A stretch of DNA of 64,000 nt from Devosia ginsengisoli (GTDB lineage: Bacteria; Pseudomonadota; Alphaproteobacteria; Rhizobiales; Devosiaceae). The DNA lies in contig NZ_CP042304.1 in NCBI RefSeq assembly GCF_007859655.1, forward strand, positions 1,426,001 to 1,490,000, in the 5' to 3' direction. The notes beneath the pieces are model-generated. The model did no database searches. It was not told the DNA's origin and saw only the letters and a program-made list of their open reading frames with translations. Both the position numbers and the translations under genes were made by a program. This document shows, piece by piece, positions 8,061 to 39,484 of the stretch. Position 1 is the stretch's first letter, and each line of letters opens with the position of its first letter.

Positions 8061-9011
8061 CTACTTTCCCGCGTCCCGGCCGTTCTGGCCCTTCTTTACA
8101 GCCAAGCGCCAACCGCTGTCAGGCGTATCTGGCTTGAACGGACCATCCTTCTGCGCAATCCAGTAGGAACCGCCCCAGGTGACGCCATTGCCCTTCCGAT
8201 AGCCGACGCCCTCGCGGTAAACGCCGCGGTCAAAGACAACCGGGAGGGCGAATTCCTTGACGCCATCGCCCCGGGCGAAGCGCAGCGATACGCCTTCATC
8301 GCTTTCGACAAGATCAAGCTCATCGAAGCCAAAACCGTCACGACCAGCGGCGCCGTCAGCGCCCTTCGCGCCGTCGCTGCCATCACGTCCATCACGGCCG
8401 GCAATCAGGCCTACATCAACCGTGGCGCCGCTAGTCAGGGTCAACACCAGGTGCCCATCCTTGCTCTGGACGGCACCGGCCAACCCCACACCATCCTTGC
8501 CATCGGCACCATCCATGCCGGGGCTGCCATTCGCACCGTCCTTGCCGGGCAGTCCGTCCTTACCGTCAATACCGGGGGCGCCATCTTTCCCGTCGATACC
8601 GTTCGGGCCAGGTGCGCCGTCCTTGCCATCCACGCCGTCGCGGCCCGGCTCACCATCCTTGCCATCCATGCCGGCGGCGCCGTCTTGCCCATCGATACCG
8701 TCACGTCCATCTTTGCCGGCCACGGGAGGATTGGCCGCCAGGTACCGCGCCACTGCGTCGGCGATCTGCTCAGCAGTCACCGGCTCAGCGTCTTTCCCGT
8801 CCTGGCCAGGGGCACCGTCGGCGCCATCTCGACCGTCGGTTCCGTCCTTGCCATTCAGCCCATCGCGGCCGTCCTGGGGCTTCGGCATGTCGGCAATCAC
8901 CTGCTCAAGCTCGGCAACGCGGGTAACCAGCGGCTCGACCATCTGGCCGATCAACTTGCCGATAACTGGCGCCATGCCCTTCATCAGAAGGGCGATTTCC
9001 GTTTCCTTCAT
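8061..9011 (-). CDS. Collagen-like phage protein with C-terminal carbohydrate-binding-like domain
   Basis: Residues 1-45 are helical (MKETEIALLMKGMAPVIGKL). Then come two blocks of Gly-X-Y triplets (about 47-75 and 100-175, rich in GKDG, GRDG, GAPG) and a shorter third (about 205-228). The C-terminus carries an aromatic WGGSYWIAQKDGPFKPDTPD motif, like short carbohydrate-binding modules of chitinase type or phage fibre tips. Collagen-like repeats in phages usually form trimeric fibres. Here the gene overlaps portal (TGATG) and precedes the connector, so it may be a head or neck fibre. A plus-strand Pro/Ser-rich frame over it is its shadow. Confidence 0.85.
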   Translation of the reverse strand: MKETEIALLMKGMAPVIGKLIGQMVEPLVTRVAELEQVIADMPKPQDGRDGLNGKDGTDGRDGADGAPGQDGKDAEPVTAEQIADAVARYLAANPPVAGKDGRDGIDGQDGAAGMDGKDGEPGRDGVDGKDGAPGPNGIDGKDGAPGIDGKDGLPGKDGANGSPGMDGADGKDGVGLAGAVQSKDGHLVLTLTSGATVDVGLIAGRDGRDGSDGAKGADGAAGRDGFGFDELDLVESDEGVSLRFARGDGVKEFALPVVFDRGVYREGVGYRKGNGVTWGGSYWIAQKDGPFKPDTPDSGWRLAVKKGQNGRDAGK

Positions 9012-26309: not shown

Positions 26310-26443
26310 GCCGACCACCCGAATACGAACCGGCCAACCAGCAGCACGGGCGCCCATGCCGCTAGTGCAGCCGCAAGGATCATCGTGCCCCGACCGACCT
26401 GGTCGGGTGTCAGGCCAGCATGACTGCGGACGGAGCGGTTCAT
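26306..26443 (-). CDS. Tiny single-span membrane protein, 45 aa
   Basis: MNRSVRSHAGLTPDQVGRGT then MILAAALAAWAPVLLVGRFV and FGWSA. One transmembrane helix near 21-40 after a polar N-terminus. Start overlaps the stop of the GapR-ParB fusion (ATGA) and its own stop overlaps the next ATG. Function unknown. Confidence 0.6.
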   Translation of the reverse strand: MNRSVRSHAGLTPDQVGRGTMILAAALAAWAPVLLVGRFVFGWSA

Positions 26444-27714
26444 GCCACCAACTCCATTCCGAGTTCGAAGGCGGCGTAGATTTCGGATTTACGCTTGGGC
26501 TGGAGCTTGGCGAGACGCTGGGCAACGAGACGGCGCTGCGCATCGTTCATGATGCGGCCGGCGAGATTCCAGCGGATGCAATCCATCAGCGGATCGGCTC
26601 CGTCATACTGGACGACGGGATATTCGATCCCCTGCCCGTCAATGCCGACCATGCTGCGGGCCTTGGTATAGCGAGCCCAGCCGTCGAGGATTTCACAGCC
26701 GATCTTGACGATGGGTTCCGCCGCAGCATTCGCCAGGTCATCCTCGATGACCGCGATATCCTGGCCGAGGTCGCCGAAGGCATAGCTGTAGTCGTGACGT
26801 TTCACGCCTTCGGGTGGGCAGTTCTCCCAGGTGACGACGCCGGGCTCGGCGTAGAGCGCAGCCGGCGCGGCAGAGCCCGAAGGCTCCACCGGCTTATCCG
26901 TCTCTTCTTTAGGGGCATCGCTCGAACGATCGTCGGTCGAATTGGTTGCCGTCTCTCCGGCTGTCTCGTCCATATCCTCAGACGTTGCAGCTGGTGCCCG
27001 GTCGCCAGCAACCCTACTCGCCACTTCGGCTTGCTCTGGTGCATCGGCCGCCGCCGATACCTCGGACATCGCAGACCCAGAGTTCGCGTCATCAGCAGCT
27101 TTCGCCACGGGATTAATTGCGACCTGACCGGCAGGGGCTGGGTCAGCCAGGTCGCTGCCAGCCGGTTGAGGCGGCGGGGGTATGGATTTCTTGAGGTTGG
27201 CCGGTTCGACAATGGCCATGGCCGGATCGGCGCGGAGGGCGGCAACGCGGTCGCCGGCCTTTACCTGCTCGATGGCGCCCATAATGATCTTGCGACCAGC
27301 TTCGGTCTTGCTGCCTTCGATGATGGTCAGAAGCAACGCTGGGTCGATATGGTCAGCGACCTTTTCGGCCCAGGCGTCGAGGGCCGGTTCGCTGTCGGTG
27401 GAAGCATCCTCACGCGTATGCGCCTGCGCGGGCTCACGCGTATGCGTACGCGAGGGTCGAGCAGCAGCGCCGAGATAGGCATCGAGGTAGAGGTCGAAAA
27501 TCGCCTCGCCCTCGGACATTTTGTCGGCGTCCTTGTCCCTCTTGCGGAGGTAGGTGACGACGTTGCCGAGCTGGGTCTTGTCGAAACCATTTGCCTTGGC
27601 TTCCGCATAGATTTCACGGATGTCAGCGGCAACGGCATCAGCCTCGTCCTTCATGCGAAGGATGCGATCGACGTAGGCCTTGATCTGGTCTTGAGCGACG
27701 TTGCTCTCGGACAT
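26440..27714 (-). CDS. GapR (DUF2312)-ParB-like fusion protein
   Basis: 424 aa in three parts. Residues 1-70 match GapR/DUF2312 (QIKAYVDRILRMKDEADAVA; AEAKANGFDKTQLGNVVTYL), a domain that binds overtwisted DNA in alphaproteobacteria. Residues about 85-285 are acidic, Pro/Ala-rich and probably disordered. Residues about 310-424 resemble a ParB/Srx-like fold: KIGCEILDGWARYTKARSMV, IEYPVVQYDGADPLMDCIRW, then NDAQRRLVAQRLAKLQPKRK. The fusion sits at the head of the replication operon. A role in marking or organising phage DNA during replication is inferred. Confidence 0.8.
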   Translation of the reverse strand: MSESNVAQDQIKAYVDRILRMKDEADAVAADIREIYAEAKANGFDKTQLGNVVTYLRKRDKDADKMSEGEAIFDLYLDAYLGAAARPSRTHTREPAQAHTREDASTDSEPALDAWAEKVADHIDPALLLTIIEGSKTEAGRKIIMGAIEQVKAGDRVAALRADPAMAIVEPANLKKSIPPPPQPAGSDLADPAPAGQVAINPVAKAADDANSGSAMSEVSAAADAPEQAEVASRVAGDRAPAATSEDMDETAGETATNSTDDRSSDAPKEETDKPVEPSGSAAPAALYAEPGVVTWENCPPEGVKRHDYSYAFGDLGQDIAVIEDDLANAAAEPIVKIGCEILDGWARYTKARSMVGIDGQGIEYPVVQYDGADPLMDCIRWNLAGRIMNDAQRRLVAQRLAKLQPKRKSEIYAAFELGMELVA

Positions 27715-27717
27715 GGG

Positions 27718-28065
27718 TCAGGCCCTCCCAACAATGGTGATGGAGCGAGCACGACCCGGCAGGCGGCGGACGAACCCGCGTTCCTGCAACTGGTCCACAA
27801 TGGCGCATACCCGGCTCTTGGCGCTCAGGCCTACGCCCTCAGCGATCTCGTCATAGGTGGGAGAGAAGCCGCTATCGGCGATGAAGGACCGAGTGAAGGT
27901 CAGCACAACAGCCTGCTGTTTGGTCAGGCCGGCGACATCCTCACCCTGTCCCAAGGCCATCAGGATGCGAGCAACGAATTCGCAGTCATCCTCGATGTGG
28001 CGGAACTGGTCCACGAGGATTTCCGCGCGTTCGGCGATCTCTGCGGGGATGGGCGAGGCGTTCAT
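27718..28065 (-). CDS. LexA-type winged-helix regulator without protease domain
   Basis: 115 aa. Residues 47-112 match the LexA DNA-binding domain (LTKQQAVVLTFTRSFIADSG; SPTYDEIAEGVGLSAKSRVC; VDQLQERGFVRRLPGRARSI). The C-terminal Ser-Lys peptidase of LexA is absent; instead a helical N-terminal 45 residues precede it. It could compete at SOS-like sites or regulate early genes. It overlaps the Cro-like gene by 4 bases. Confidence 0.85.
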   Translation of the reverse strand: MNASPIPAEIAERAEILVDQFRHIEDDCEFVARILMALGQGEDVAGLTKQQAVVLTFTRSFIADSGFSPTYDEIAEGVGLSAKSRVCAIVDQLQERGFVRRLPGRARSITIVGRA

Positions 28066-28295
28066 GCCACCTGCTCCACTTTCGGGGAGTAGAACCAGCC
28101 GATGTCCACCACGCCGCCAGAGGCTTTGATGATGCGATCCATGACCGCCTTGCTCGGCACCCTGTCCTTGGACAGATACCGATACAGGCTGGCCACCTCG
28201 ATCTTCAGCGCAGCCGCAACCGTCGGCTTGCCGCGCCCGGCTTGCTCTTCGCGCTCAACCCATTCGGGGAATGAAATCTGCTGGTTCATGGCCAT
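28062..28295 (-). CDS. Cro-like early repressor
   Basis: 77 aa from ATG 28295 (MAMNQQISFPEWVEREEQAG); MNQQ at 28289 is an alternative. A helix-turn-helix at about 20-45 (GRGKPTVAAALKIEVASLYR) and the Cro-type end (VMDRIIKASGGVVDIGWFYS). It is the first gene of the minus-strand early operon, divergent from cI, with operators between them. Confidence 0.85.
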   Translation of the reverse strand: MAMNQQISFPEWVEREEQAGRGKPTVAAALKIEVASLYRYLSKDRVPSKAVMDRIIKASGGVVDIGWFYSPKVEQVA

Positions 28296-28302
28296 GCACC
28301 AT

Positions 28303-28367
28303 ATCACCACATTGGTGATTGGCAAGCAGAATAATCACCAATCTGGTCAAAGACGCCATTTTGGTGA
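28303..28367. promoter_or_regulatory. Three operator-like palindromes between cro and cI
   Basis: Sites fit TCACCA-N3-TGGTGA: 28303-28319 (ATCACCACATTGGTGAT, perfect), 28334-28350 (ATCACCAATCTGGTCAA) and 28353-28367 (weaker left half, GCCATTTTGGTGA). Spacing between the outer sites is about two to three helix turns. They fit binding by CI and Cro on the divergent promoters, as in lambda OR. Confidence 0.82.
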
Positions 28368-28383
28368 AATGCGATAACTCGGC

Positions 28384-29169
28384 ATGGCCAAGTTTCCGAA
28401 CCATCTCCGCGACTTCCGCATCGCTGCCGGGCTCAGCCAGCCTGAATTGGCAAAGGCCGCTGATACGAACGTCCAGAACGTTTCACGCATCGAGCTTGGC
28501 GAGCGGAAGCTTACCCAGGAATGGGCCGCCATGTTCGCGCGGCACCTGGGCACCACTGCACAGCAGATGATGTTCCCAGATCCTGAAGTGCTAGCCCGCG
28601 TTCGATCGAAGAAGCCGGTTCGCCGCGAGTTGGACCGCGTTCCTCTCGACGAAGCATGGACGCCGACATCAGAAGCGGATGGCGAGGGCTACGACCGGGA
28701 CAGCTACGAGCCCAAGATCGAGGGCGCTATCCCGGAGCTAGACGCTCGCGCCGGCGGCGGCGAGGGCGCGGTCGGCGAGGTGATGGTCCTGCCGGTGGGC
28801 AATGGCACCATCTCTGCACACAAGATCCTGGACGAGTGGCGCATCCCGCCGTCCTACCTGCGCGAGGCGGTTGCCAACCCTGATCGGGCGATCGTTCTTG
28901 GCATCCAAGGTGACAGCATGATGCCGAACTACGCGCCAGGCGATCGAGTGATCATCGACCTGACCGAGCACGAGCTGCGCGCCGATGGCGTCTACCTCAT
29001 CAGCGACGGATTCAGCGAGCCACAGATAAAGCGGCTGCAGCGCGTGCTGTTCGCGGTGCCGCCGAAGTGCCGGATCATCAGCGACAACCCGAGCTATGAG
29101 GCTCAAGAGGTTGATGTTGATGGAGTGAAGATACTTGGGAAAGTAGCCGCTTACGTCGGCCGCCGATGA
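28384..29169 (+). CDS. CI-type repressor with S24 (LexA-like) peptidase domain
   Basis: 261 aa. An N-terminal helix-turn-helix (LRDFRIAAGLSQPELAKAAD; NVQNVSRIELGERKLT) and a C-terminal S24 domain with the catalytic Ser178 in GIQGDSMMPNYAPGD and Lys near 216 in PQIKRLQR. A likely self-cleavage Ala-Gly lies at ARAGGGEG (near 123/124), so DNA damage and RecA should induce the prophage. Its stop overlaps the ATG of the next gene, which places two further genes in the repressor transcript. Confidence 0.93.
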   Translation: MAKFPNHLRDFRIAAGLSQPELAKAADTNVQNVSRIELGERKLTQEWAAMFARHLGTTAQQMMFPDPEVLARVRSKKPVRRELDRVPLDEAWTPTSEADGEGYDRDSYEPKIEGAIPELDARAGGGEGAVGEVMVLPVGNGTISAHKILDEWRIPPSYLREAVANPDRAIVLGIQGDSMMPNYAPGDRVIIDLTEHELRADGVYLISDGFSEPQIKRLQRVLFAVPPKCRIISDNPSYEAQEVDVDGVKILGKVAAYVGRR

Positions 29170-29738
29170 CCATACCACAATTCACCGTGGACGGCATTCT
29201 GCCACCTTACATTGGCGACAATGCCGGCGGACCCCAAGAGGGAATGAGTCCCTATCTGGCGGAGCCACTCGACGTCGTTGACCAATTTGGCACCAGCGTA
29301 CGCCGCTGCGTGATTTTGCGAGACTGGCTACAGCATCGGGCAGAGCTTCGGGATATAGGAATTTTGTCCGGGTTTCAGTGGCTCGATGGAAGCTTCGTTG
29401 AAGACAAGGAGCCTAACGACCTAGACCTGGTGACTTTCCTTTTTCGGCCCGAGGGCTGCCAAGACGCCGAGCCTTGGAACCGCTGGGTTGGCGAGAACAT
29501 TTCTCTGCTTCTCAGGGAGCCGGTTCGAGCGCGATACAAGCTGGACTTTTTCGTGGTGGATATGAACGGCCATCCTGAGACAATCGTAGACGCGGCCCGC
29601 TATTGGCTAGGATTGTTTTCTCACAAACGGAGTACTAACCAATGGAAGGGCATGCTAAAGATAAGGTTGGATGCGGATGACGTGCCCGCTTCCGAGCTAG
29701 TTGCCGCGCGATTAGCAGCATATGAGGCGAGTCAATGA
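29166..29738 (+). CDS. Nucleotidyltransferase-like protein (DUF6932-like) in the repressor operon
   Basis: 190 aa. The N-terminus FTVDGILPPYIGDNAGG and the motif GFQWLDGSFVEDKEPNDLDL (residues 69-88) match a nucleotidyltransferase core: Gly75-Ser76, then Asp85 and Asp87, with a possible third acid at Asp127 (YKLDFFVV). This is the pattern I associate with the DUF6932 group, often found beside a second unknown gene. ATGA overlap with cI means it is translated in the lysogen. Lower GC than neighbours suggests recent gain. It may modify tRNA, a nucleotide or its partner; substrate unknown. Confidence 0.75.
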   Translation: MTIPQFTVDGILPPYIGDNAGGPQEGMSPYLAEPLDVVDQFGTSVRRCVILRDWLQHRAELRDIGILSGFQWLDGSFVEDKEPNDLDLVTFLFRPEGCQDAEPWNRWVGENISLLLREPVRARYKLDFFVVDMNGHPETIVDAARYWLGLFSHKRSTNQWKGMLKIRLDADDVPASELVAARLAAYEASQ

Positions 29739-30685
29739 GCGCCCTGTCCAAATTAGCCAAAGACGAGATGAAGGCAGAGATCAGCTCGCTGTCTAGACTT
29801 ATCGAGTCCCTTCGGCCAAGCGATCTTTTGACCCGACTGAGCCTGGAGGCCAAGCAGCAACATTTAAGCAAATCTCTAGCGGACCTCGGCGAAGCCATGG
29901 AGTCTGCGACCGCCTCTGTGGCCCTATTCTTTGGCGGCCGGCCCGTGATCGGGAGCAAGGCCATCGACAGCCGTTTCGGCACTGCAGCGGTCAACGCATT
30001 CCAGGACCTGGTGGCAAAAATTCAAACGCAGGACAATGGAGGGCTCGGCCGTCGGGGACCCGTCGCGAACTTGGCGGCGAGCTCACTTCATATCACCGAT
30101 GTTGCGAGGGGATCCTTCGGCTTCATTTTGGAAGAGATGGTGGACCAGACGACAATTATCGAAAGCCCGCTCAAAGGAGCAGTCGACGCGGCTGGCGATC
30201 TTTTGCAATCGTTCGCTCAGGACAGCGATGAGAAGTTTGAGGAAGATGTTTCGGCCTTCGATGAACGAGTTCTCATGGCCGCAGGCAACTTCCTTGGCAC
30301 CCTAAAGAGCTTCGGGGCCACAGCTCGCGTCGTCGCCAACGACGCTGAGTTCCGACTAACCGGGGAAGCCGTCGAACGGGCGGCCGCGAGGGCACGTACA
30401 ACGAAAATACTCGAGGACGAGATTTCGATGAAAGGCGCCCTGACCGGAACACTACCCGAATCCCACATGTTCGAGTTTCGGGCGGACGACGAGAACCTAC
30501 GCACCTTTCGGGGCAAAGTTGATAAAGCAATCGACGCCGAGACCTTAGCTCGCCTAAACAGGGAACTCAGCGGCTTGCCAGCAATCGGCCACTTTCTCCG
30601 GAAACGGGTTCTGAAGGAGGGCGAATTGGTTCGAACGGCTCATGTCCTGCTGAAGGTCGAACCAATTTACCCTGCGCAATTTTAG
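29735..30685 (+). CDS. Unknown partner of the nucleotidyltransferase-like gene, 316 aa
   Basis: Third gene of the repressor operon, overlapping the previous one by 4 bases (ATGA). Mostly helical at the N-terminus (KLAKDEMKAEISSLSRLIES), with ITDVARGSFGFILEEMVDQT near 125 and a charged C-terminal part (FRADDENLRTFRGKVDKAID; LVRTAHVLLKVEPIYPAQF). No membrane span, no HEPN R-x4-6-H motif and no known nuclease motif seen. It converges with a minus-strand gene at 30682. Co-expression with CI suggests a lysogen-benefit function such as defence, exclusion or toxin-antitoxin. Confidence 0.7.
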   Translation: MSALSKLAKDEMKAEISSLSRLIESLRPSDLLTRLSLEAKQQHLSKSLADLGEAMESATASVALFFGGRPVIGSKAIDSRFGTAAVNAFQDLVAKIQTQDNGGLGRRGPVANLAASSLHITDVARGSFGFILEEMVDQTTIIESPLKGAVDAAGDLLQSFAQDSDEKFEEDVSAFDERVLMAAGNFLGTLKSFGATARVVANDAEFRLTGEAVERAAARARTTKILEDEISMKGALTGTLPESHMFEFRADDENLRTFRGKVDKAIDAETLARLNRELSGLPAIGHFLRKRVLKEGELVRTAHVLLKVEPIYPAQF

Positions 30686-31068: not shown

Positions 31069-31121
31069 ATCACCACTTTGGTCATTTCATCACTTTACAT
31101 TCACCAGATTGGTGATATCGT
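31069..31121 (+). promoter_or_regulatory. Promoter of the plus-strand early operon with two CI/Cro-type operators
   Basis: Two more copies of the immunity operator: 31069-31085 (ATCACCACTTTGGTCAT) and 31100-31116 (TTCACCAGATTGGTGAT). A candidate -35 TTTACA (31094-31099) and -10 TATCGT (31116-31121) are 16 bases apart, so the second operator fills the spacer and a bound repressor would block polymerase. This resembles lambda OL/PL in logic. Confidence 0.75.
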
Positions 31122-32580: not shown

Positions 32581-32723
32581 CCGGCACCTCTGTCCTCACC
32601 ACCAAATACACCTGTGACAAGAACGGAAACTGGATCGAGATTCCTATCATCCTCACTCGGTCTGGAAATGGATGGATTGAACGGGAGCCTCCTAAGGCTT
32701 TGCCGAGGAAGGTGGCAGCATGA
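32577..32723 (+). CDS. Small phage protein, 48 aa
   Basis: MTGTSVLTTKYTCDKNGNWI then EIPIILTRSGNGWIEREPPK. Beta-rich, overlapping both neighbours by 4 bases (ATGA), which supports it. Function unknown. Confidence 0.6.
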   Translation: MTGTSVLTTKYTCDKNGNWIEIPIILTRSGNGWIEREPPKALPRKVAA

Positions 32724-34672
32724 ACGCTCACCTCCCGCCCGATTTCTGGATGCTCGACCAGGGCACACCGGACGCTGATGAATTGATCGTCGACAGCTTC
32801 GCCGGCGGCGGCGGGGCATCGACCGGAATCGAGATGGCCCTCGGCCGTTCGCCCGACTATGCCATCAATCACGACGCCGAGGCCCTGGCACTTCACGCCG
32901 CGAACCATCCCGAGACGGTCCACCTGTCGAAGAACATCTACAAGGTCGATCCCATGGACGTGGTCGGTCGGCGCAAGGTCGGCCTGCTCTGGGCATCGCC
33001 AGACTGCAAGCATTTCAGCAAGGCCAAGGGCGGCGCACCGGTCAAGCGCGAGATACGCGATCTTGCTTGGACGGTGGTGCTGTGGGCAGAGCGGGTGCGC
33101 CCGCGTGTGATCATCCTTGAGAACGTCGAGGAGTTCCAGACCTGGGGTCCGCTGGTCGATACGCCGAAAGGCATCTTTCCATGCCCAGACCGCAAGGGAG
33201 AAACCTTCAATGAGTGGATCGCCGCTCTCAAGAAGCACGGCTACAAGGTCGAGTGGAAGGAATTGCGCGCCTGCGACTATGGCGCGCCGACCACGCGCAA
33301 GCGCCTGTTCCTGATTGCTCGCTGCGACGGCAAGCCCATCGTCTGGCCAGCGCCGACGCACGGCCCCGGCCGACTGCCGTACCACACCGCCGCGAGTCAT
33401 GTGATCGACTGGTCGATTCCGTGCCCGTCGATCTTCGATACCAGCGAAGAGATCATGGCCAAGTTCGGCGTGCGGGCCATCCGCCCGTTGGCCGAAAACA
33501 CGATGGCCCGCATCGCCAAGGGCGTGAAGCGGTACGTGCTTGACGCGGCCAAGCCGTTCATCATCAAGTTCCAGACCGGCGCAGTCGGCTCCGACATCGA
33601 CGCGCCGCTGCCGACCGTCACGGCCAACAGCTTCATAAAGCGCCCTGGCGGCGCTGCGCCGCCTGGCGTGGTCATGCCGCACCTGATGACCATGCGGAAC
33701 GCGGGCAAGCCGTACAACGAGGCCGACAAGCCCACCCATACCGTCACGGCAGGCGGCGCCGGGCTGTCCCTGGTCGCGCCAGTGCTGGCCGGCGTCGGCG
33801 GCCGGGCCGGGCAGAGCCGCCCGCGCTCGGCCGATGAACCGTGCGCGACCGGCACGACCAAGGCTGACACTGTTCTGGTTGCGCCGATCCTATCGTCCGC
33901 GCAGCACGGCGGGTCGCACCGGGCAGCCGATGAGCCGCACCGCACGATCGCAGCGAGCGACAAAGACCAGAACCAGATCATCGCCGCCACGATGGTGCAG
34001 ACCGGATATGGCGAACGGCCCGGCCAGGAGCCCCGTGCACTGGATATCGGCAAGCCGCTGGGCACGGTTGTTGCCGGCGGCGCGAAGCACGCCATGGTCG
34101 CCGCATTCCTCGCGCAGCACAACACGATGCCCGCCGGCGGCGTTCATGCCGGCCACCATGCCGAGGATCCCATCTCGTCCGTCACCGCCACGGGAAGCCA
34201 GCAGGCGGTCGTCTCGGCCGGCCTGATGAACATGAAGGGCAGCGACCGGCGCATGTCCGATGTTGAGCAGCCCGCACCGACGGTGACGGCTGACGGCACG
34301 CACCAGGCCGAGGTTCGTGCCTTCCTTCTCAAATATTACGGCATCGGCCCCGATGGGCATGACGCCGATGCGCCGATGGGCGCGGTCACCACCAAGGATC
34401 GGTTCGGCCTGGTGATGGTCGAGGGCGAGCCCTACGAGATCGTGGACATCGGCATGCGGATGCTCACCCCGCGCGAACTGTTCAAGGCGCAGGGATTCCC
34501 GGCTGGCTACGAGATCGAAACAGGCGTGTTCGCCGACGGCAGCCGGCGCGCGCTCACCAAGACCGCTCAGGTGCGCATGTGCGGCAATAGCGTCTGCCCG
34601 CCGATTGCTGCCGCGCTGGTGTCCGCCAACTGTGCCGACATGGCGCGCAGTGAGAAGGTGGCAGCCGAATGA
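32720..34672 (+). CDS. DNA C5-cytosine methyltransferase with repeated modules
   Basis: 650 aa. Motif I is SFAGGGGASTGIEMAL (about 31-46), the catalytic Cys lies in SPDCKHFSKAKGG near 94, and ENVEEFQTWG is motif VI near 132. Between about 275 and 560 the target-recognition position is filled by seven or eight repeats of about 30 residues, each with a (D/E)xPxxTVTA-like core (LPTVTAN; THTVTAG; APTVTAD). The C-terminal helix (MLTPRELFKAQGFP) and TKTAQVRMCGNSVCPP hold the last conserved motifs. No restriction partner is adjacent, so it is probably an anti-restriction methyltransferase. Confidence 0.92.
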   Translation: MNAHLPPDFWMLDQGTPDADELIVDSFAGGGGASTGIEMALGRSPDYAINHDAEALALHAANHPETVHLSKNIYKVDPMDVVGRRKVGLLWASPDCKHFSKAKGGAPVKREIRDLAWTVVLWAERVRPRVIILENVEEFQTWGPLVDTPKGIFPCPDRKGETFNEWIAALKKHGYKVEWKELRACDYGAPTTRKRLFLIARCDGKPIVWPAPTHGPGRLPYHTAASHVIDWSIPCPSIFDTSEEIMAKFGVRAIRPLAENTMARIAKGVKRYVLDAAKPFIIKFQTGAVGSDIDAPLPTVTANSFIKRPGGAAPPGVVMPHLMTMRNAGKPYNEADKPTHTVTAGGAGLSLVAPVLAGVGGRAGQSRPRSADEPCATGTTKADTVLVAPILSSAQHGGSHRAADEPHRTIAASDKDQNQIIAATMVQTGYGERPGQEPRALDIGKPLGTVVAGGAKHAMVAAFLAQHNTMPAGGVHAGHHAEDPISSVTATGSQQAVVSAGLMNMKGSDRRMSDVEQPAPTVTADGTHQAEVRAFLLKYYGIGPDGHDADAPMGAVTTKDRFGLVMVEGEPYEIVDIGMRMLTPRELFKAQGFPAGYEIETGVFADGSRRALTKTAQVRMCGNSVCPPIAAALVSANCADMARSEKVAAE

Positions 34673-38281: not shown

Positions 38282-38490
38282 CGAAACCTGCCGTTTTCAC
38301 CCAAGGCGACATCTCGAAGCTGCTCAAAGGCGCCAAATCGGCCGGAGTGGACGTGCGTCGCGTGATTATAGATCGCTCGGGCAGGATAGTTGCGGATTTC
38401 GGCAAGCCGGTCGATGATACCTCGGAACCGAACGAGTGGGACGTGGTTTTCGATGCCCAAGAAAAGCGGACTGCCAAAGGGCGTCACTGA
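38278..38490 (+). CDS. Small protein before integrase, possible excisionase-like factor
   Basis: 70 aa, MTKPAVFTQGDISKLLKGAK, then SAGVDVRRVIIDRSGRIVAD. The helical first half (QGDISKLLKGAKSAG) and the position overlapping the integrase gene are typical of small integrase-linked proteins in Hyphomicrobiales prophages, possibly directionality factors. Role not proven. Confidence 0.65.
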   Translation: MTKPAVFTQGDISKLLKGAKSAGVDVRRVIIDRSGRIVADFGKPVDDTSEPNEWDVVFDAQEKRTAKGRH

Positions 38491-39484
38491 GTTCAAGGAC
38501 CGCCATGAGAAATGGCATCTCCGCTATCGGGCTAAGGGCCAGCCCACGGTCTATCTCAAGACCCGGCCCGGCCAGGATGGCTGGCATGAGGAATACGAGG
38601 CCGCACGAGCCGGCGAGCCCGAGAAGCGTGTCCGCACCAGCGCCAGAACGAAGCCGGGCACGATATCGGCCCTGATCGCAGTCTATTATGGCACTCCGGA
38701 ATTCACCGGCCTGGCCGAAAGCTCGCGCAAGACCTATCGCAACATGCTGGAGCGCTTCCGCGAGGCCCACGGTGACAAGCAGGTCGCCACCCTGACCCGA
38801 GCCCACATCAAAGCCATCATCGGCGCCATGTCGGCAACGCCAGCCGCGGCGAACAATTTGCTCGACCGTCTACGGATCCTCATGAAGCTGGCCATGGACG
38901 ACGAGTGGCGAGCCGATGACCCAACCTATCGCGTCAAGGGCTTCAAGCTCTCCGGCGACGGCTTCCACACTTGGTCCGAGGACGACATCGAGAAGTTCTG
39001 CGACCACTACCCGATAGGCACGAGCGCCCGGCTCGCCATGGGTCTGATGCTCTATACTGGCCAACGACGATCCGACATGGTGAGGATGGGGTGGCAGCAC
39101 ATCTCGGGTGACCGAATGCGTGTGCGCCAGCTCAAAACCGACGCGATGCTATCGATCCCCATCCATTCGGACCTTGCCGAAATTCTGGCGAGCGCCGAAC
39201 GGACTGACTTGCCGATCCTGCTCACGCAATTCGGTAAGCCCTTTACGGCCAACGGATTCGGCAACCGGATGAGGAAATGGTGCAACGCGGCCGAACTACC
39301 CGAATGCACGTCGCATGGGCTTCGGAAGGCGGCAGCCAGGCGCATGGCGGAGGCCGGCTGTAGCAACAAGGAGATCATGGCAATTACCGGTCACCAGACC
39401 GATAAGGAGGTCACGCGCTACACGAAGGCAGCGGACCAGATAAAGCTCGCGGATCGGGCCATGAAGGCGATCGGCGGCAGTTAG
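38453..39484 (+). CDS. Tyrosine-family phage integrase
   Basis: 343 aa from MPKKSGLPKGVTEFKDRHEK at 38453. SAM-like N-terminal core-binding region (YRNMLERFREAHGDKQVATL) and a catalytic domain with Arg in YTGQRRSDMVRM, HGLRKAAARRM (His-x-x-Arg), GHQTDKEV (His) and the nucleophile Tyr in VTRYTKAAD. It catalyses integration and excision at att sites. It is the last gene before the chromosome, 86 bases from a tRNA-like end. Confidence 0.95.
   Translation: MPKKSGLPKGVTEFKDRHEKWHLRYRAKGQPTVYLKTRPGQDGWHEEYEAARAGEPEKRVRTSARTKPGTISALIAVYYGTPEFTGLAESSRKTYRNMLERFREAHGDKQVATLTRAHIKAIIGAMSATPAAANNLLDRLRILMKLAMDDEWRADDPTYRVKGFKLSGDGFHTWSEDDIEKFCDHYPIGTSARLAMGLMLYTGQRRSDMVRMGWQHISGDRMRVRQLKTDAMLSIPIHSDLAEILASAERTDLPILLTQFGKPFTANGFGNRMRKWCNAAELPECTSHGLRKAAARRMAEAGCSNKEIMAITGHQTDKEVTRYTKAADQIKLADRAMKAIGGS

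Follow-up and report, generated by a model that had tools for sequence, protein, structure and literature searches.

A DUF6932 nucleotidyltransferase and its partner behind the CI-type repressor of a Devosia ginsengisoli prophage: a candidate lysogeny-expressed exclusion module

The gene pair and its two proteins

Within a 64,000-nucleotide stretch of the Devosia ginsengisoli genome (contig NZ_CP042304.1, positions 1,426,001 to 1,490,000 of the forward strand; hereafter the window, whose own numbering is used throughout), we analysed two genes that follow a CI-type repressor gene and encode a nucleotidyltransferase and a partner protein. The pair is real and conserved, and is probably an exclusion or defence module expressed in lysogeny. 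The presumed operon comprises:

28384..29169, + strand: CI-type repressor, first gene of the presumed operon, with helix-turn-helix (HTH) and S24 peptidase domains (Pfam)
29166..29738, + strand: DUF6932 nucleotidyltransferase, 190 amino acids (aa), with G75-S76...D85-x-D87...D127
29735..30685, + strand: partner, 316 aa, with a helical hairpin (residues 3-53), an alpha/beta domain (~61-222) and an OB-fold (~224-316)

The joints between CI and transferase and between transferase and partner are each a 4-base overlap, ATGA, and the pair has a lower guanine-plus-cytosine content (GC; transferase 0.548, partner 0.568) than CI (0.625) or window bases 1-39500, taken as the prophage part for this comparison (0.612). 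The original prediction, read from the sequence alone, had described the overlaps, the low GC and the transferase residues Gly75-Ser76, Asp85 and Asp87, and was correct in all of these, coordinates included. The repressor matches Peptidase_S24 (E 2e-13) and HTH_31 (E 9e-9) in Pfam and the transcriptional repressor family phrog_4 in PHROGs (E 4e-32). Judging from a reading of the translations, the CI-transferase-partner operon sits in the lysogeny region of a prophage.

The transferase belongs to DUF6932 (PF22014, E 7e-29), the only Pfam family matched up to E 10, where no AbiEii or MenT match appeared, and NCBIfam gave no match. It also matches phrog_9194 (E 2e-35) and the PADLOC model PDC-M63A (E 1e-14), the latter matched by all 73 aligned transferase relatives as well. 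Across these 73 sequences the GS motif, D85, D87, R47, R58, Q71 and W72 are invariant, and D127 is 99% conserved. The predicted structure (mean pLDDT, the per-residue model confidence, 96.5) is closest to MNT/AadA-type nucleotidyltransferases, with weak scores; a Foldseek search of the PDB returned no match below E 1e-3 for either protein. With its catalytic residues kept, the transferase is apparently an intact enzyme, as far as sequence can tell.

Up to E 10, the partner matched nothing in Pfam, NCBIfam or PADLOC. It falls into a PHROGs family without assigned function, phrog_18731 (E 5e-44). The HEPN signature RX4HXY was present in 1/79 members, no histidine column is conserved at 50%, and no obvious conserved catalytic set emerged from the alignment. 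The AlphaFold model is confident (pLDDT 94.5); its OB-fold similarity is at the level of a common fold, and no RexA, RdgC or HEPN chain was seen among the fold matches listed. The motif GSFGF (residues 126-130) lies in a hairpin within the alpha/beta domain, and its Ser127 is invariant in 13/13 partners (alignment A1) that were collected without that motif; the invariance of GSFGF in the larger alignment A4 (79 partners) is partly built in, because those loci were retrieved through it. Two candidate identities were set aside: a HEPN protein, provisionally, as no HEPN signature was found, and a phage structural or regulatory protein, the case that the original prediction had named as fatal to it, as the PHROGs family has no assigned function and the gene also occurs on plasmids and in chromosomes.

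Recurrence of the pair and its place behind repressors

Relatives were gathered by scans of genomes and contigs, the genomic partner loci and 58 viral ones being found through GSFGF. The genomic partner set is the best 80 of 134 contigs, many genome records are metagenome-assembled genomes (MAGs), flanking genes follow a longest-open-reading-frame (ORF) rule, and a transferase was scored as full at 175 aa or more. A full, same-strand transferase gene lies directly upstream of the partner in 58/58 viral and 69/80 genomic partner-seeded contigs, the remaining 11 genomic loci being two at contig ends, seven with transferase fragments and two without a transferase. The viral loci include near-duplicates: by 4-mers, 45 of the 58 viral and 79 of the 80 genomic partner sequences are distinct. 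The two frames overlap in 57/58 viral and 64/80 genomic loci, by exactly 4 bases in 17 and 26 of them (longest-ORF starts). Both genes are full in 69/71 transferase-seeded viral contigs, a set that overlaps the partner-seeded one, and a phmmer search placed the transferase beside the partner in 12/13 distinct loci, the exception (L007) retaining a 55-aa C-terminal transferase remnant. On plasmids the partner was found in 4 of 72,556 records, with the transferase just upstream in 4/4 (E 3e-54 to 7e-68). The pair recurs elsewhere and is more than a chance association, so the original prediction survives its own refuting condition, that the two genes would not occur together in other places. Conservation extends to copies within prophages and beyond them, and there is linkage to the repressor, which upholds the original proposal of a two-gene unit. 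In one locus (L012:2975-3316, - strand), a second, different small ORF, read from sequence as nucleotidyltransferase-like, lies directly upstream of the pair.

The titles of the genomic contigs name Alpha-, Beta- and Gammaproteobacteria, and others, mostly of MAGs, name Acidobacteria-type bacteria, Planctomycetota, Cyanobacteria, Cloacimonadota, Verrucomicrobia and archaea. Within this breadth the family is patchy, as expected of mobile genes: phrog_18731 occurs in 3/201 genomes of relatives and 11/398 of the phylum (the window's own genome in both), and the partner gene has one match in the single-contig 4.48 Mb genome. With the window partner alone as query, the viral scan gave no relative, and relatives emerged only with an alignment; among 50,697 annotated phage records, neither the window partner, the window transferase nor the relative in L056 had a match.

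The genes upstream of the viral pairs point to repressors. From 45 distinct viral loci, 41 of which gave an upstream ORF (at most two per locus, within 1.5 kb), 29 of 62 same-strand ORFs match HTH_3 and 23 of 62 match Peptidase_S24, figures that stand without a control set. The partner of one related locus, L075, which is of the type modelled as the candidate defence system PDC-M63, matched 6 records of 3 phages among the same 50,697. In these three annotated temperate phages, mEpX1 (whose host is E. coli), vB_EhrS_59 and PhiR30_1, a PDC-M63-type pair lies directly behind cI, with a 4-base gene overlap and with N-like or Kil/Gam genes beyond it. Of the pair, the first gene fits the transferase profile at E 3e-41 to 6e-32 and the second a PDC-M63B-type profile at E 5e-119 to 4e-95. 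The original prediction rightly placed the window pair in a slot known for exclusion genes.

Near some genomic copies lie genes for HsdM (L133), HsdS (L156), HsdR (L163), a YhcG nuclease (L155), an SNF2-type helicase (L154) and, at L107, the ABC-3C components CTD12 and MC8 and a DUF2326 protein; they are among ten neighbours chosen by eye, nine of them having Pfam matches, mostly of a defence kind, and that of L007 none. At L107:4846-10405 the partner lacks a transferase; to one side of it are the ABC-3C genes in the order CTD12, MC8, DUF2326, and to the other is an AAA_21 ATPase gene, an arrangement that could reflect loss of the transferase or recruitment of the partner. On plasmid pBs5S5b (L254, 3449-5927), the pair is followed on the opposite strand by genes annotated as DUF6527, ThiF adenylyltransferase and multiubiquitin protein.

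Around the window operon, operator-like sequences and a divergent gene complete the immunity region:

28062-28325: small HTH gene, divergent from CI, whose HTH_31 match falls short of the Pfam cut-off
28303-28319 and 28334-28350: tandem operator-like palindromes between the divergent HTH gene and CI, the first perfect, the second with two mismatches to ATCACCANNNTGGTGAT
31069-31085 and 31100-31116: second pair of ATCACCANNNTGGTGAT-type palindromes, beyond the partner gene

Both palindrome pairs are spaced 31 bp start to start and flank CI-transferase-partner on either side. Sites with at most two mismatches number four in the window, compared with 0.19 expected, and 0/100 shuffles reached four, a count that is partly circular as the pattern was derived from the window itself. 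They are presumed to be operators to which the repressor would bind. Because the genes overlap, the pair would be expressed from the CI promoter; terminator-like sites in the promoter scan, one of them within the transferase gene, are at chance level.

Other genes of the region were noted in passing. A 115-aa protein (27718-28065, - strand) adjoining the immunity region has a LexA-type DNA-binding domain (Pfam E 4e-12) and no S24 match, and a 424-aa protein (26440-27714, - strand) has an N-terminal GapR-like DNA-binding domain (Pfam E 4e-17). Read from their translations, minus-strand ORFs left of CI resemble tail, portal, capsid and terminase genes, ORF 38390-39484 resembles an integrase, and the large prophage ORF 32720-34672 (+ strand) resembles a C5 cytosine methyltransferase whose middle part is long and rich in repeats. 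Beside the portal-like ORF, ORF 8061-9011 (- strand) carries a long collagen-like Gly-X-Y repeat.

Architectures, candidate effector and possible function

DUF6932 gave 18 matches in 17/398 genomes, and these fall into three architectures. Type A, that of the window, comprises 11 loci, ten with the partner and one (L087) with only the partner's hairpin left. Type B comprises L075, L090 and L091, whose partners match PDC-M63B at E 8e-154, 4e-60 and 6e-43. In type C (L076, L080, L081 and L088), a short DUF6932 transferase precedes a protein of 421 to 513 aa that combines HTH and M78 peptidase domains, identified by Pfam in three loci and by alignment in L088. The type A and B partners are homologous over their full length (hhalign 97.2%, E 4e-11, 288 columns), and 3/3 PDC-M63B-type partners retain a GS in the hairpin; comparing the profiles of type A and type C partners gave nothing. 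R47, GS, D85, D87, R155 and K161-G162 are common to ten transferases drawn from all three types. Going by these alignments, what stays the same across this sample is the transferase, and what varies is the partner. The window pair would accordingly be placed as a sister type of PDC-M63, invisible to the PADLOC models as a complete system: three PDC-M63B models are matched by 3, 1 and 1 of 79 partner relatives (best E 2e-6), and model PDLC04749 has no match in the window's genome. Weak matches to PDC-M32A hint at a further related candidate system.

Broken loci bear on which of the two genes acts. Full-length partners occur at three loci with a truncated transferase (L007, L147 and L160, of which L160 lies close to the end of its contig), at L106, where part of the transferase is inverted, and at L107, which has no transferase; L169 lacks both the transferase and the first 65 partner positions. 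Altogether the transferase is broken or absent in 9/78 non-edge genomic loci, eight of them with a full-length partner, and the partner is broken in 1/11 window-type genomic transferase loci and 1/70 non-edge viral ones. Where the partner is broken but the transferase intact, at L087 (hairpin positions 8-54, E 0.001) and L202 (positions 2-180), the partner's hairpin is still present in both. Because partners stay full-length even at loci that have lost or partly inverted the transferase, the partner is unlikely to be a potent toxin, and because, in addition, it has no obvious catalytic site and is replaced in type C by an HTH-M78 protein, modest evidence favours the transferase as the effector. 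There is precedent for such a role: in the published excerpts available, MenT toxins are nucleotidyltransferases that act as the toxic component on tRNA ends, and Xress-MNTss couples a transferase toxin to an Xre antitoxin (PMC8406773; this and the other papers cited here are used in excerpt).

Our leading account, held tentatively and at somewhat less than even confidence, is that the two genes form an exclusion or defence module that occupies a rex-like slot, is expressed in lysogeny and is related to PDC-M63. The prophage would make transferase and partner together with CI, and in the resting lysogen the partner's N-terminal helical hairpin would keep the transferase inactive. The GSFGF and OB-fold domains might sense something of a superinfecting phage, nucleic acid being a guess; the freed transferase would then attach a nucleotide to a target on which phage or cell depends, for which tRNA ends are the best precedent (MenT), and superinfection would abort as the outcome. 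A broader proposal, possible but doubtful, is that DUF6932 serves as the common catalytic effector of an exclusion family that swaps its regulators, either the hairpin-GS-OB protein of the window and PDC-M63 types or the HTH-M78 protease.

Several observations weigh against this account. The promoter scan reported nothing between CI and transferase, though it reported nothing for CI itself as well. Weak PDC-M32A matches are commoner among partner relatives (8/79, best E 5e-6) than those to PDC-M63B (3/79). Losses run in both directions, in small numbers and with no clear asymmetry, and the transferase frame breaks of L101, L143, L156 and L172 are possibly assembly errors; the effector assignment draws on analogy, on a few broken loci and on a partner in which no obvious catalytic site is seen. 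For defence genes nearby, 130 of 312 near ORFs matched 423 PADLOC models and 140 of 190 far ORFs matched 128, a comparison that is only suggestive, as one protein matches many models and these are not protein counts, and for which we claim no significance. Finally, according to the accessible text of PMC12409345, deleting PDC-M63AB in E. coli NILS69 did not raise the plating of 10 phages, and systems cloned in K-12 besides PD-T4-3 and PD-T7-1 were unprotective against 15 K-12-infecting phages, PDC-M63AB not being named in that statement. The collection used there consisted of virulent double-stranded DNA phages; such a test would not have revealed a rex-type exclusion directed at temperate phages. 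Among the literature searched, no paper names DUF6932 and one names PDC-M63, with this negative result.

The best-surviving alternative is a toxin-antitoxin system of the MntA/HepT kind, in which the partner would be the toxin and the transferase would silence it by nucleotide addition, perhaps at Ser127. The constancy of that serine, and of GS in the PDC-M63B-type partners, would suit such a modification site; HEPN/MNT modules likewise have the transferase upstream of the partner (PMC7641770), and among solved structures the transferase matches MNT antitoxins best, although at Foldseek E 1.5e-3 and a template-modelling (TM) score of only 0.22-0.28. Set against this are the partner's lack of an obvious catalytic set and of RX4HXY, the GSX8DXD spacing of the transferase (among the 73 sequences of alignment A5, X14 in 53, X8 in 10, X10 in 2, other in 3 and no pattern match in 5) and the full-length partners in the transferase-defective loci L007, L106, L107, L147 and L160. 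We consider this scheme unlikely, and the direction proposed originally, with the transferase as antitoxin, is the less likely one; what stands of that proposal is a real, repressor-linked unit with a plausible defence role, the toxin-antitoxin label not being established.

A role in lysogen fitness or switch control without exclusion, in which the pair tunes the repressor or the host, similar to the switch role reported for RexA, appears improbable. The repeated position behind repressors, the negative PDC-M63AB test and the bias that RexA exerts on the lambda switch (PMC11077077) speak for it, but plasmids and archaeal MAGs also carry copies, and other copies lie close to restriction or ABC-3C genes, settings in which a role specific to the repressor makes little sense. 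More doubtful again is an obligate enzyme complex without any toxin-antitoxin relation, where the OB-fold partner would deliver a nucleic-acid substrate and the transferase would modify phage RNA or DNA: DUF6932 also precedes the regulator-like HTH-M78 protein, the OB similarity does not exceed the common fold, and partners persist without a transferase. That the two are decaying passenger genes, functionless in this prophage, would fit their low GC and the broken relatives, yet is very improbable given two intact frames, kept catalytic residues and the 69/71 viral loci in which both genes are full.

Comparison with known systems

In Foldseek, the structural model of the partner is similar to that of a DUF6575 protein from a phage (E 2.6e-12), but with a TM score of only 0.41, a root-mean-square deviation of 16.6 and no Pfam sequence match. 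DUF6575 is listed among the domains of 21 defence systems in the excerpt of PMC9519451; the link was dropped, as PF20215 gave short partial matches in 2/299 genomes, inside long ORFs.

HepT/MntA resembles the window pair in having a small nucleotidyltransferase gene upstream of a partner gene, and its MNT antitoxins are, weakly, the closest structures; it differs in the Pfam family of the transferase, in motif spacing (GSX10DXD in the published excerpt, GSX8DXD in the window) and in the RX4HXY motif that the window partner lacks. MenAT and AbiE offer the precedent of a nucleotidyltransferase toxin, but the window transferase has no AbiEii/MenT match in Pfam or NCBIfam and its partner is a different one.

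PDC-M63 has the same gene order, A directly upstream of B, as also seen in L075, L090 and L091; its gene A belongs to the same DUF6932 family and its gene B is a remote full-length homologue of the partner. The window transferase is longer, however (190 aa vs ~155), and the window partner matches no PDC-M63B model up to E 10. The position behind cI gives this candidate system a hypothesis, exclusion by the lysogen, that is relevant to temperate and lambdoid phages besides virulent ones.

The lambda immunity operon carries rexAB (PMC9836094), likewise a gene pair directly behind cI, as in the window and the three phages with PDC-M63-type pairs; in place of RexA, described as RdgC-like in the available part of PMC11077077, and RexB, there is a nucleotidyltransferase and an OB-fold protein. 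If the broader proposal on DUF6932 is true, temperate phages of unrelated lineages carry it behind their repressors much as lambda carries rexAB, and it would solve the problem that rexAB solves a second time, with different enzymology, in a form common to plasmids and to bacterial and archaeal chromosomes.

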